Part shown: one piece after another, positions 31,418 to 35,119 of the stretch
How positions within the stretch are numbered: position 1 is the first letter of the stretch
How the letters are laid out: each line of letters begins with the position of its first letter
Origin: a virus
Length of the DNA: 37,276 nt
IMG/VR virus record: IMGVR_UViG_3300031565_000157
Location: 1-37,276 of that record
Reading direction: 5' to 3' (one strand)
Program-made: the position numbers and the translations under genes
Notes under the pieces: generated by a model
What the model was told of the DNA's origin: nothing
Databases searched by the model: none
The model's input: the letters and a program-made list of their open reading frames with translations, nothing else

Positions 31418-31620
31418 TTTGTAGTAAATGTAATAGAGAATTACCAGAAACAGAATTTCATAAATCCGGATACAAGCCTACACGAGCTAGAAGAACAGAT
31501 TGTAAAGAGTGCAGAAAAAAACAACGGCATGAATATTATTTAAAAAATTCGATTAAAGAGGCTGTTTATGCAAGAAAAAATTATAGAGAAAAAAAAGAAT
31601 TTATTGCAAATACCTTGTGA
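31414..31620 (+). CDS. Zinc-ribbon protein, endonuclease VII-like N-terminus
   Basis: 68 aa. MICSKCNRELPETEFHKSGY ... RTDCKECRKKQRHEYYLKN has the CxxC...CxxC plus basic helix common at the start of recombination endonuclease VII and of HNH regulators, but the catalytic part is absent. The last 53 nt overlap the next gene in another frame. Perhaps a DNA-binding remnant. Confidence 0.65.
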   Translation: MICSKCNRELPETEFHKSGYKPTRARRTDCKECRKKQRHEYYLKNSIKEAVYARKNYREKKEFIANTL

Positions 31621-31771
31621 AATTTGGCAAAGGGTAGTCGGATTTTATCGCCCATTAAGTGAAGCCAATAAAGGGAAACAATCAGAAATAAAAGATAGAA
31701 AATTATTTGATGTAAACATGAAAAACAAAGAATATGATAGATGGAATAAAAAAAAGCTTGACAAGTTTTAA
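31568..31771 (+). CDS. Stand-alone glycyl-radical domain resembling the NrdD C-terminus
   Basis: 67 aa, ATG 31568 with AAAGAGG five bases upstream. Residues 17-43 read CEIWQRVVGFYRP then LSEANKGKQSEIKDRK. The same pattern ends class III (anaerobic) ribonucleotide reductases: RVxGY with the radical glycine, followed by an N-x-GKQ-E-x-K-x-R run. The rest of NrdD is absent here. It may repair or activate a host NrdD, in the way GrcA/YfiD serves pyruvate formate-lyase, or be a remnant. The C-terminal codons (KKLDKF) contain the duplicated promoter at 31758. Confidence 0.72.
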   Translation: MQEKIIEKKKNLLQIPCEIWQRVVGFYRPLSEANKGKQSEIKDRKLFDVNMKNKEYDRWNKKKLDKF

Positions 31772-31785
31772 GGTTCGTATATATT
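31751..31785 (+). repeat. 35-bp repeat carrying a promoter, copy 1
   Basis: Identical to 33749-33783. In both places it codes the last residues (KLDKF, stop) of the gene before and contains TTGACA (31758-31763), 16 bases, TATATT (31780-31785). It is followed in both copies by a base change and then AGTT. Confidence 0.9.
31758..31785 (+). promoter_or_regulatory. Promoter in front of a cassette-like gene (copy 1)
   Basis: TTGACA, 16-base spacer, TATATT. It reads into the core-like GTTGTGT at 31788 and then the gene at 31812, the same arrangement as at 33756. Confidence 0.78.
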
Positions 31786-31787
31786 TA

Positions 31788-31794
31788 GTTGTGT
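31788..31794 (+). promoter_or_regulatory. Integron core-like site (copy 1)
   Basis: GTTGTGT, one base from the core GTTRRRY. Its position relative to the promoter is close to that of GTTAGAT at 33786 (overlapping AGTT). The inverse partner ACATAAC at 32025 pairs with it except for one wobble position. Confidence 0.5.
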
Positions 31795-31811
31795 GAAAGG
31801 CGGTTTAAAGT

Positions 31812-32012
31812 ATGAAAATTAGAAAAATTAAAACTAAAGAAAGGGCTAATGGTATGAAGTATTGCACCTTTTGCAAGCCTGCCAGAGTTGACGCTGTATA
31901 TAGAGATTTAAACATGAAGTTTGCGTGTGAAGAACATAAGCATTTATTAACAGAGGATAATGATGACGGATATATGTCAGATGGTGATTATCAATCATGG
32001 GGCAGGCTTTAG
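31812..32012 (+). CDS. Cysteine-containing protein in a cassette-like unit
   Basis: 66 aa, MKIRKIKTKERANGMKYCTFCKPARVD ... KFACEEHKHLL; CxxC and a later CxxH form a probable zinc site. It lies between core-like GTTGTGT (31788) and inverse core ACATAAC (32025), as a cassette gene does. GGCGG serves as ribosome site. The inverted repeat GGGCAG/CTGCCC (32000-32005, 32016-32021) spans its stop. Function unknown. Confidence 0.65.
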   Translation: MKIRKIKTKERANGMKYCTFCKPARVDAVYRDLNMKFACEEHKHLLTEDNDDGYMSDGDYQSWGRL

Positions 32013-32024
32013 GAACTGCCCATC

Positions 32025-32042
32025 ACATAACAAAGATTAGAT
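32025..32042 (+). other. Collapsed attC (stem region missing)
   Basis: ACATAAC followed by AAAG, then directly ATTAGATGAAATAGAGG. The first part equals the left end of the attC sites at 34252 and 34826 (TAACAAAGA), the second equals the start of cassettes 1, 2 and 4 (TTAGATGAAAT, AGAGGTT). The imperfect palindrome between them, some 60 nt in the complete sites, is absent. It looks like an attC reduced by deletion. Confidence 0.55.
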
Positions 32043-32058
32043 GAAATAGAGGTTTAAA

Positions 32059-33616: not shown

Positions 33617-33769
33617 ATGTTAAAAGAATCTGGAATGGATGAAGTTTATTGCATGTGGTATTGCTGCCCTAAATGCGGTTATGACATGATAATGATATCG
33701 TTTAAATACTGTCCTAATTGCGGTGTTAAATTAAATGTTAAAAAAAATAAAAAGCTTGACAAGTTTTAA
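33617..33769 (+). CDS. 50-aa zinc-ribbon protein
   Basis: MLKESGMDEVYCMWYCCPKC... with CPKCGYD and CPNCGVK, a classic zinc ribbon. It ends KNKKLDKF, whose codons form the repeated promoter. The ribosome site AGGAG (33594) is distant; a five-codon GTG ORF at 33606 lies between, so coupling is possible. Confidence 0.65.
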   Translation: MLKESGMDEVYCMWYCCPKCGYDMIMISFKYCPNCGVKLNVKKNKKLDKF

Positions 33770-33783
33770 GGTTCGTATATATT
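33749..33783 (+). repeat. 35-bp repeat carrying a promoter, copy 2 (TTGACA / TATATT)
   Basis: Identical to 31751-31785. The promoter is TTGACA (33756-33761), 16 bases, TATATT (33778-33783). It reads straight into the cassette array, so it plays the part of an integron Pc promoter although no integrase is present. Confidence 0.9.
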
Positions 33784-33785
33784 CA

Positions 33786-33792
33786 GTTAGAT
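33786..33792 (+). promoter_or_regulatory. attI-like core site at the head of the cassette array
   Basis: GTTAGAT fits the core GTTRRRY exactly and follows the -10 box by two bases. It marks the left end of cassette 1; its complement ATCTAAC is at the start of attC1 (33980). Confidence 0.72.
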
Positions 33793-33808
33793 GAAATGGA
33801 GGCTAGAC

Positions 33809-33985
33809 ATGGTAAAATACAAAAAAGGCGACAGGGTTATTGTAGATAATGACAGGGTTGGAACTATTGTAAAATGTGAACAAGTCTACACGGCGGTCGT
33901 AGAGTTCGACCATGAGTATATAAGTTCTTCGCTTCGCTGTGTTGATAAGATGGAGGTTGAGCAAAACCGCCTCCACTTCATCTAA
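33809..33985 (+). CDS. Cassette 1 protein, SH3-like small barrel
   Basis: 58 aa from ATG 33809 with GGAGG upstream; an earlier in-frame ATG at 33791 overlaps the core site. MVKYKKGDRVIVDNDRVGTIVKCEQ ... AVVEFDHEY reads as a KOW/SH3-like barrel of five strands. The stop TAA lies in the inverse core of attC1. Function unknown; small barrel proteins often bind nucleic acid. Confidence 0.75.
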   Translation: MVKYKKGDRVIVDNDRVGTIVKCEQVYTAVVEFDHEYISSSLRCVDKMEVEQNRLHFI

Positions 33986-34059
33986 CAGCAATTAAACGGT
34001 TTCGCTCCGCTACATGCGAATCCACTTCGTGGACTTCGTTTAATTGCGGAACATTAGAT
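33980..34059 (+). repeat. attC site 1
   Basis: Inverse core ATCTAAC (33980-33986) and core ATTAGAT (34053-34059) frame an arm AGCAATTAAACG that pairs with CGTTTAATTGC, and a tip TCCAC-TTC-GTGGA. Size 80 bp. The core has A instead of the usual G at its first base, which may lower recombination. Confidence 0.82.
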
Positions 34060-34085
34060 GAAATAAAAATTAAAGAGTATTTACA

Positions 34086-34241
34086 ATGAGGACAGAATCC
34101 GAAATAAAAAAAGAAATTGCTGCTATGAAAAGAGATTTAGAGTTTATGGAAAAAAAGCCAATTCATAGTGAAGAGGCACGAGAGAACGCTATGTTTTGTC
34201 AGCGTCAAGTCATTAAAGTATTAGAATGGTGTGTAGAATAA
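34086..34241 (+). CDS. Cassette 2 protein, 51 aa
   Basis: ATG 34086, AAAGAG upstream. MRTESEIKKEIAAMKRDLEF ... EEARENAMFCQRQVIKVLEW is a helical coiled-coil hairpin. No known domain. It ends 10 bp before attC2. Confidence 0.72.
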   Translation: MRTESEIKKEIAAMKRDLEFMEKKPIHSEEARENAMFCQRQVIKVLEWCVE

Positions 34242-34251
34242 TTTTTACTTC

Positions 34252-34334
34252 ATCTAACAAAGAATATCTGGTTCAGCCTGTGGCTTCACCCAAACCGTGA
34301 GTACACGGCTTCAGATATTCTTGGAACGTTGTCG
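34252..34334 (+). repeat. attC site 2
   Basis: Inverse core ATCTAAC (34252-34258); arm AAGAATATCTG pairs with CAGATATTCTT; tip CCGTG-AGTA-CACGG; core GTTGTCG (34328-34334). Size 83 bp. The core departs from GTTRRRY, but its last six bases belong to cassette 3, whose own inverse core is CGACAAC, the exact complement. Confidence 0.85.
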
Positions 34335-34360
34335 GAAATAAGTTTTTAAAGGAGATAAAA

Positions 34361-34633
34361 ATGACAGAAGAAAGATGTAAACAAATTATGGAGCAACTTG
34401 GACAGCCTCATAGTAGGTCTTTAATGCAAGTAATTTTCCAAGTTGCAAACGAGACAGAGCAGGAAGTGAGAAAAAAACTTACATCCGACAACAGCGATTA
34501 TGAGGTTCAGCTAAAGGCTTCACCCAAATTGCCGAGTTTAGAAGATGTTATTGACGAAGTTTCAGACCATGTGCATCGAGAAACAATTAAGGAAACATAC
34601 TATGCAATACAACGACTCGGCAACTTCGCATAG
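34361..34633 (+). CDS. Cassette 3 protein, C-terminal half coded by the attC hairpin
   Basis: 90 aa, ATG 34361 after AAAGGAG. MTEERCKQIMEQLGQPHSRS ... TEQEVRKKLTSD is helical; from about residue 42 the frame passes through inverse core CGACAAC (34486) and on through the arm and loop of attC3, reading ...LPSLEDVIDEVSDHVHRETI..., to stop in the right arm (34631). Both halves look protein-like. Either the attC loop expanded by taking in coding DNA or the gene gained a mobile C-terminus. Confidence 0.72.
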   Translation: MTEERCKQIMEQLGQPHSRSLMQVIFQVANETEQEVRKKLTSDNSDYEVQLKASPKLPSLEDVIDEVSDHVHRETIKETYYAIQRLGNFA

Positions 34634-34648
34634 TAGCAAACGTTAAAT
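34486..34648 (+). repeat. attC site 3, very long, with a coding loop
   Basis: Inverse core CGACAAC (34486-34492), left part GGTTCAGC and GGCTTCACCCAAA as in attC2, then TTGCCGAGT (34529-34537), a 77-nt loop, ACTCGGCAA (34615-34623, perfect complement), CTTCGC as in attC4, and core GTTAAAT (34642-34648). Size 163 bp against 80-83 for the others. The lower arm pairs imperfectly (GCGATTATG with CATAGTAGC). Confidence 0.7.
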
Positions 34649-34664
34649 GAAATAGAGGTTAGAC

Positions 34665-34841
34665 ATGGAACCAGAAGAAAAGTTAGGTTTAAACAAAGCG
34701 TTAGATATTCTAAATAAAATTCAAAGGTTTGATTTATGTTGGCAACAGATGGATGAAACAAAAGACGGGGAGTTTGTTAGATATAGCGACATAAAGAGGT
34801 CTATTATAGAACTCCTCCAAACTTCATCTAACAAAGAATAA
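34665..34841 (+). CDS. Cassette 4 protein, 58 aa
   Basis: ATG 34665 with AGAGG upstream in the same head sequence as cassette 1. MEPEEKLGLNKALDILNKIQ ... WQQMDETKDGEF ... SIIELLQTSSNKE is mainly helical. Its last codons (TCA TCT AAC AAA GAA TAA) lie in attC4. Function unknown. Confidence 0.72.
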   Translation: MEPEEKLGLNKALDILNKIQRFDLCWQQMDETKDGEFVRYSDIKRSIIELLQTSSNKE

Positions 34842-34905
34842 GCGTTTCGCCTTCGGCTCTCCCAAATTGCCGTTGGCAACTTCGCTTATTCTCGGAACGT
34901 TATAC
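34826..34905 (+). repeat. attC site 4
   Basis: Inverse core ATCTAAC (34826-34832); arm AGAATAAGCG pairs with CGCTTATTCT; tip TTGCC-GTT-GGCAA; core GTTATAC (34899-34905). Size 80 bp. It shares CCCAAATTGCCG and GGCAACTTCGC with attC3. Confidence 0.85.
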
Positions 34906-34924
34906 AAAAATGAGAGGTGAATGA

Positions 34925-35119
34925 ATGGAAAAAATAGACGTTAAATCTGTACAAATGAGTTTAGAAGAACACCTCTCAACTATGGTAGAAGGAATTGAAC
35001 CAGATTGGGGCTGTATTGGAGAGTTTGATGAAGAAAGTGGTTTTGAACCTGAGTGGGACGAAATAGAACATAATAGTTGGGAATGTCACTCTTGTAACAA
35101 TGGACCTTGTTATCAATAG
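34925..35119 (+). CDS. Cassette 5 protein, acidic, cysteine at the C-terminus
   Basis: 64 aa, ATG 34925, GAGAGGTG upstream. MEKIDVKSVQMSLEEHLSTM..., very acidic centre (FDEESGFEPEWDEIEHN) and an end CHSCNNGPCYQ. It is the last gene of the array; no complete attC follows. Confidence 0.7.
   Translation: MEKIDVKSVQMSLEEHLSTMVEGIEPDWGCIGEFDEESGFEPEWDEIEHNSWECHSCNNGPCYQ

Follow-up and report, generated by a model that had tools for sequence, protein, structure and literature searches.

Arrays of attC sites without an integrase (CALINs) have been described in phages, and Qi et al. (2023; PMC9892861) report such arrays, with attC sites active with IntI1, in phages TJE1, P12002L and PH101. The tips of attC sites can vary in length, since replacement of the 65-bp tip of the Vibrio VCR by 3 nt alters recombination about two-fold only (PMC2727003), and we infer from this that an inserted segment may also be tolerated. 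Cassette ORFs sometimes overlap their attC (PMC11014356), and the ACID permits an overlap of up to 15 bp (PMC2674596). Cassette genes can moreover be fused with each other, as in AAC(3)-Ib/AAC(6')-Ib (PMC3656343).

The phage locus studied here can be compared with each of these systems. As in the phage CALINs, an attC array without an integrase lies in a phage genome; however, its attC family is different, and a coding attC tip is not mentioned in the accessible part of the paper cited (PMC9892861). Like the VCR, the site attC3 has R and L arms and a long variable terminal structure; the tip of the VCR is branched, however (PMC2727003), while the loop of attC3 lacks structure and has an ORF running through it. 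The ORF of its cassette (c3) enters the site as in other overlapping cassettes, but over 145-148 nt, covering both L boxes and the entire tip. A single ORF of cassette-derived parts is also present in the fused cassettes, but there two known genes are joined (PMC3656343), while c3 keeps a complete attC around a short segment of unknown kind. Fused cassettes are thus already known, as are phage CALINs, long attC tips and slight ORF/attC overlaps, the last three being combined here in a new way. In a literature search of partial coverage, no description was found of a cassette gene drawing half of its protein from its own attC.

The cassette array in the phage genome

The whole stretch of DNA analysed (the window; 37,276 bases of a virus record) has a terminal repeat of 126 bases, positions 2-127 being identical to the final 126, and is considered an essentially complete phage genome because its ends repeat in this way. 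Its gene content includes terminase, portal, capsid, DnaB-like helicase, methyltransferase, transglycosylase and amidase/endolysin. The GC content is 30% in the genome and 38% in the cassette region. With four attC sites inside 1 kb (at least two close sites without intI define a CALIN) and no tyrosine-recombinase (Phage_integrase) domain found on searching the phage, the cluster at 33786-35119 is a CALIN and not a complete integron, in which intI is present. The features are as follows.

31788-32035, plus strand: cassette remnant A1, separate from the array, with an ORF at 31812-32012 and an eroded attC
33756-33783, plus strand: sigma70-like promoter TTGACA-16-TATATT, 11/12 match, its end 2 nt short of the boundary of c1
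33786-34053, plus strand: cassette c1, ORF from 33791 or 33809 to 33985, attC1 at 33977-34062
34054-34327, plus strand: cassette c2, ORF at 34086-34241, attC2 at 34249-34337
34328-34642, plus strand: cassette c3, 5' boundary GTTGTCGG, complementary to its own R'' over 18/20 nt
34642-34898, plus strand: cassette c4, ORF at 34665-34841, attC4 (the short-tip sibling) at 34823-34908
34899-35119, plus strand: cassette-like unit c5, the last in the array, ORF at 34925-35119, without an attC of its own

Judged from its sequence, the promoter ahead of the first cassette could drive transcription of the array. Sigma70-type promoters were enriched over the whole window (37 versus 18.7 expected, a number reached by none of 100 shuffles), whereas Bacteroidota-type promoters were not (13 versus 15.1 expected); this pattern may speak against a host in the Bacteroidota, even though the attC family is shared with that phylum. 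An exact direct repeat of 28 nt with TTGACA-16-TATATT occurs at 31757-31784 and 33755-33782. Each copy is followed, after 2-3 nt, by the GTT boundary of a cassette group (A1 and c1). The arrangement resembles a portable promoter with an insertion point, and the ORFs upstream of both copies end in KKLDKF. Also near A1, a 67-aa ORF at 31568-31771 resembles the final 30 positions of the anaerobic ribonucleotide reductase NrdD (Pfam, E=2.4e-6), i.e., a short C-terminal piece. In A1 (31788-32045) the R'' TCACATAAC is kept, and the few bases left up to the next boundary ATTAGATGAA represent the eroded attC.

Pairing of R'' with the 5' end of its own cassette is expected if the cassette is genuine. 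Out of 20 positions, 14 were paired in A1, 17 in c1, 18 in c2 and 18 in c3, with a weaker pairing in c4 (12), and only 2 of 2520 permutations, including the true arrangement, attained the sum over these five cassettes. The test is strong for c3 because its R'' box is private: the pair CGACAAC/GTTGTCG, formed by R'' and the cassette's own 5' end, occurs in this cassette only. In c1, c2 and c3 the end-to-end complementarity extends over ~20 nt, beyond the 7-nt R boxes, and in c1 it overlaps the Shine-Dalgarno sequence. For comparison, 51 of 58 saliva cassettes had full R-box complementarity (PMC4909258). The bottom strands of the sibling sites folded much better than shuffled sequences did, with z scores of -6.8 (attC1), -4.0 (attC2) and -3.9 (attC4).

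The structure of attC3 and the ORF running through it

The first-pass annotation had described attC3 as a 163-bp site with a tip loop of 77 nt, sharing its skeleton with attC4, the loop of which has 3 nt. On re-reading the sequence, all of these details were confirmed, and the layout of the site is given below.

34361-34633, plus strand: c3 ORF, 90 aa, Shine-Dalgarno AAAGGAG, stop codon TAG at 34631-34633
34486-34648, minus strand (the bottom strand is the folded form): attC3 from R'' to R', 163 bp, recognised by arm matches and held-out models
34486-34492: R'' CGACAAC, with AAC core
34494-34504: L'' GCGATTATGAG, pairing at 8/11 positions with L'
34529-34537: left half of the tip stem, TTGCCGAGT
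34538-34614, plus strand: tip loop, 77 nt, unstructured, coding-like in the ORF frame
34615-34623: right half of the tip stem, ACTCGGCAA
34627-34637: L' CGCATAGTAGC, holding the stop codon of the ORF
34642-34648: R' GTTAAAT, with GTT core, crossover between G34642 and T34643

attC3 is a real attC site of the phage CALIN. Both R boxes are present with their AAC and GTT cores; the left arm resembles attC2 and attC4 and the right arm resembles attC4, each to a degree found in 0 of 2000 random phage pieces, and the loop compared with the sibling sites gave no match. A first covariance model was built from attC1, attC2 and attC4, with 11 pairs changed on both sides. A second model (R2) consisted of these three and six new Bacteroidota sites, attC3 being left out; 20 of its 26 pairs changed on both sides, its covariation score was reached by none of 500 shuffles, and it located attC3 at 34483-34648 (39.1 bits, E=1.1e-8). 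A third model (R3), made of Bacteroidota sites alone, although these were gathered using models containing attC1, attC2 and attC4, detected all four phage sites, attC3 with 48.3 bits (E=1.6e-10). The held-out models match attC3 over its full length. The alternative that the attC likeness arose by chance inside one uniform gene, for which the open frame and nothing beyond it speaks, has a negligible probability: it was ruled out by the two held-out model matches, the arm matches and the own-end pairing. The attC nature of the site, as first annotated, was therefore upheld.

The terminal structure between the L arms of attC3 consists of the 9-bp stem and the 77-nt loop, within the skeleton CCCAAATTGCCG ... 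GGCAACTTCGC that is common to attC3 and attC4 (34823-34908). An inverted repeat of 9 bp comparable to the tip stem occurred in 14 of 4429 phage windows. Published attC lengths are 57-142 nt, with an upper end of about 142-150 nt, and attC3 exceeds the 57-142 nt range. By inspection, 8/11 Watson-Crick pairs are formed in its L stem versus 11/11 in attC1, 11/11 in attC2 and 10/11 in attC4. The loop folded alone had no structure (z +0.86). The tip stem is perfect over its 9 bp. On folding of the bottom strand, a check suggested in the first-pass annotation, the energy of the whole site was unexceptional compared with shuffles (z -0.4). The three mismatched L-stem positions and this fold energy could also mean that attC3 has decayed and persists merely because it codes for protein, having lost the ability to recombine. 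However, R'' and the own 5' end still pair at 18/20 positions and the tip stem and both cores are intact; such decay is possible, though somewhat doubtful, and it would be compatible with the gain of a tip discussed below.

The c3 ORF enters the site at R'', crosses L'' and the loop, and terminates in L'. Of its 90 codons, 48-49 are supplied by attC3, in agreement with the earlier claim that about 48 residues come from the site and that the ORF ends in the right arm. Residues 42-59 correspond to the left arm, 60-85 to the loop and 86-90 to the right arm. If the ORF is translated at all, it is translated into attC3, because there is no stop before 34631. Since the stop lies in L', ahead of the crossover, the protein is independent of the neighbouring cassette and would be left unchanged by excision and re-insertion.

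Codon use was scored with 19 phage genes as the reference. The 25 loop codons scored 8.2, which is the 34th percentile of coding windows and a value reached by 9.9% of the stop-free non-coding windows and about 1.7% of all non-coding windows. When the loop was scored by frame, the ORF frame (+0) gave 11.1 and the other frames -5 to -33. The 18 left-arm codons fell at the 0.4th percentile of coding windows, and the entire attC-coded part at the 0.6th, which is low because of the arms. A coding-like stretch is thus embedded in attC arms that look non-coding; the frame is open across attC3 as first annotated, and it is the loop, not the arm, that shows coding-like codon use. A single-sequence AlphaFold2 model of the protein (pLDDT 64, low confidence) placed helices within residues 3-40 and 60-86, those at 60-65 and 70-86 being loop-coded, and its least confident stretch (52-56) is arm-coded. 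The model is consistent with an attC-coded linker between two helical parts, although it is no proof of this.

These features could possibly be explained by a cassette fusion, in which the gene tail and right attC half of a second cassette were brought by a deletion next to the left attC half of a first one, with no insertion into a tip. The incomplete pairing of the L stem, the coding-like loop, the left arm nearest to attC2 (also matching attC4) with a right arm matching attC4 and not attC2, and the existence of fused aminoglycoside-resistance cassette genes (PMC3656343) would all agree with it. However, the tip stem is fully complementary, its AGT/ACT extension included, no relic of the left arm of a second attC is present in the loop, and R'' matches the 5' end of its own cassette. 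A fusion is therefore considered quite unlikely.

Related attC sites and the direction of change

Very few integrons were found in Bacteroidota in a survey of complete genomes (PMC9024848). The model of attC1, attC2 and attC4 matched 7 of 395 genomes in Bacteroidota, the phylum to which a locus titled Tannerella belongs, 0 of 298 in the phylum of a locus titled Sulfurovum, and 0 of 290 in that of a locus titled Bdellovibrionales. A covarying attC family was observed in 21 of 123 genomes of one Bacteroidota order and 8 of 98 of another. At one Bacteroidota locus (L027), a split integron-integrase/Xer-like gene lies near a short ORF and two sites; together with the covariance models, this indicates that the structure of the sites, and at one locus also their surroundings, is that of attC. 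Polaribacter phage P12002L had only weak scores with the attC model (E 0.1-1.4), some of which fall at methyltransferase gene borders (within 30002-38941 of that locus).

The Bacteroidota sites share the skeleton of the phage sites, and their tips are short, form a hairpin or belong to a 138-nt subfamily. None of the 79 distinct sites compared exceeds attC3 in length (166 nt as called). Counting upstream ORFs with 35 or more codons, read-through is also by far the deepest in attC3 (148 nt), followed by 64 and 41 nt. The second deepest was observed where a 349-codon ORF enters a 138-nt attC by 64 nt (L099:1501-1638). Where an ORF reaches a related site, the overlap is mostly 0-16 nt, versus 145-148 nt in attC3. 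In the 31 sites matching the CCAAA...CTTC pattern (the skeleton class), tips are mostly 11-36 nt long, whereas the attC3 tip has 95 nt; the hairpin tip TTGCC-NNN-GGCAA is found in attC4 and several Bacteroidota sites of this class. Its long-tip exceptions are a 52-nt pure hairpin, some 138-nt sites and attC3. A 163-nt site of L027, outside the pattern, has a structured tip, and structure is present in most other long tips but absent from the attC3 loop.

A separate subfamily (L039, L030:1758-1895, L070, L072 and others) has a near-constant length of 136-141 nt and tip repeats resembling GTTCAGTG; its copies are sometimes close together (L070/L085, L090). Its long tips are not consistently open in frame. 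A general tendency of long attC tips to be coding in the frame set by the AAC of R'' was suggested by 8 long sites but not upheld on 33, where 16, 8 and 3 were open in the respective frames, nearly all within one similarity cluster.

The long tip of attC3 is likely the derived state because most skeleton-class tips are short, in a comparison made between loci rather than between orthologous cassettes. Loop gain would then be the likely direction of change. The first-pass proposal that a cassette gene gained its C-terminus by attC loop expansion is supported by these short-tip relatives as to the gain of the loop. It could also be that the loop is a non-coding spacer, open by chance, and the C-terminus has no role. 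About 10% of shuffles leave the tip open in the ORF frame, long tips without a consistent open frame are common among the related 138-nt sites, and the left arm is not coding-like. On the other hand, the loop scores as coding in the ORF frame only, and it lacks the structure typical of most other long tips; a neutral read-through is accordingly rated as rather unlikely.

Searches of phages, plasmids, viral contigs and 84,980 species genomes found no homologue of the 90-aa c3 protein, the two scans of contigs being sensitive to close relatives only. Matches in Bacteroidota genomes (395 sampled phylum-wide and 98 in one order) were at chance level, and nothing significant was found in Pfam, PHROGs, NCBIfam or, with Foldseek, in BFVD. 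The pre-attC piece (41 aa) and the loop plus right arm (31 aa), searched separately against phages, gave chance matches only, so the suggested search with the C-terminal part was negative. DNA patterns of the attC skeleton likewise gave chance matches only, the array DNA had no match in phages and plasmids, and no source of the 77-nt loop was found. The c3 cassette with a short attC, which the first-pass annotation had also recommended looking for, was not found in the phages, plasmids, viral contigs and genomes searched.

Possible origin and meaning of the coding tip

Based on the results above, we favour, with a probability of about two in three, an ordinary short-tip attC that acquired a coding-like segment of ~77 nt in frame with the ORF, by which c3 takes 48-49 of 90 residues from its site, while the site can probably still fold and recombine. 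The attC identity, the open frame, the coding-like loop and the rarity among the 79 sites are observed, whereas the direction of change, residual recombination and any new function of the C-terminus are the parts that we infer. The starting point would be an ordinary short-tip attC in the phage CALIN, the hairpin tip of which gained the new DNA. With the reading frame preserved across this gain, the cassette ORF would then extend through R'', L'' and the loop to the stop in L'. The bottom strand probably still folds, and recombination could be mediated by an integrase supplied in trans, as mobility of c3 would require because none was found in the phage; it may be less efficient because of the mismatched L stem.

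attC3 would then be an uncommon form of a known element, and it may illustrate how genes can gain new ends. It is unlikely, although conceivable, that tip expansion is a route to new C-terminal segments in the full sense, with the hairpin tolerating coding inserts, mobility being kept and the product being selected in the phage. The covarying attC family across Bacteroidota genomes, present also in a phage, is a separate outcome of this study. attC3 itself offers a natural test of how long and how unstructured an attC tip may be. Provided that the site still recombines and that the longer protein is functional, attC tips would be points at which protein sequence could be added without loss of mobility, and this would be a concrete mechanism of innovation for cassette genes.
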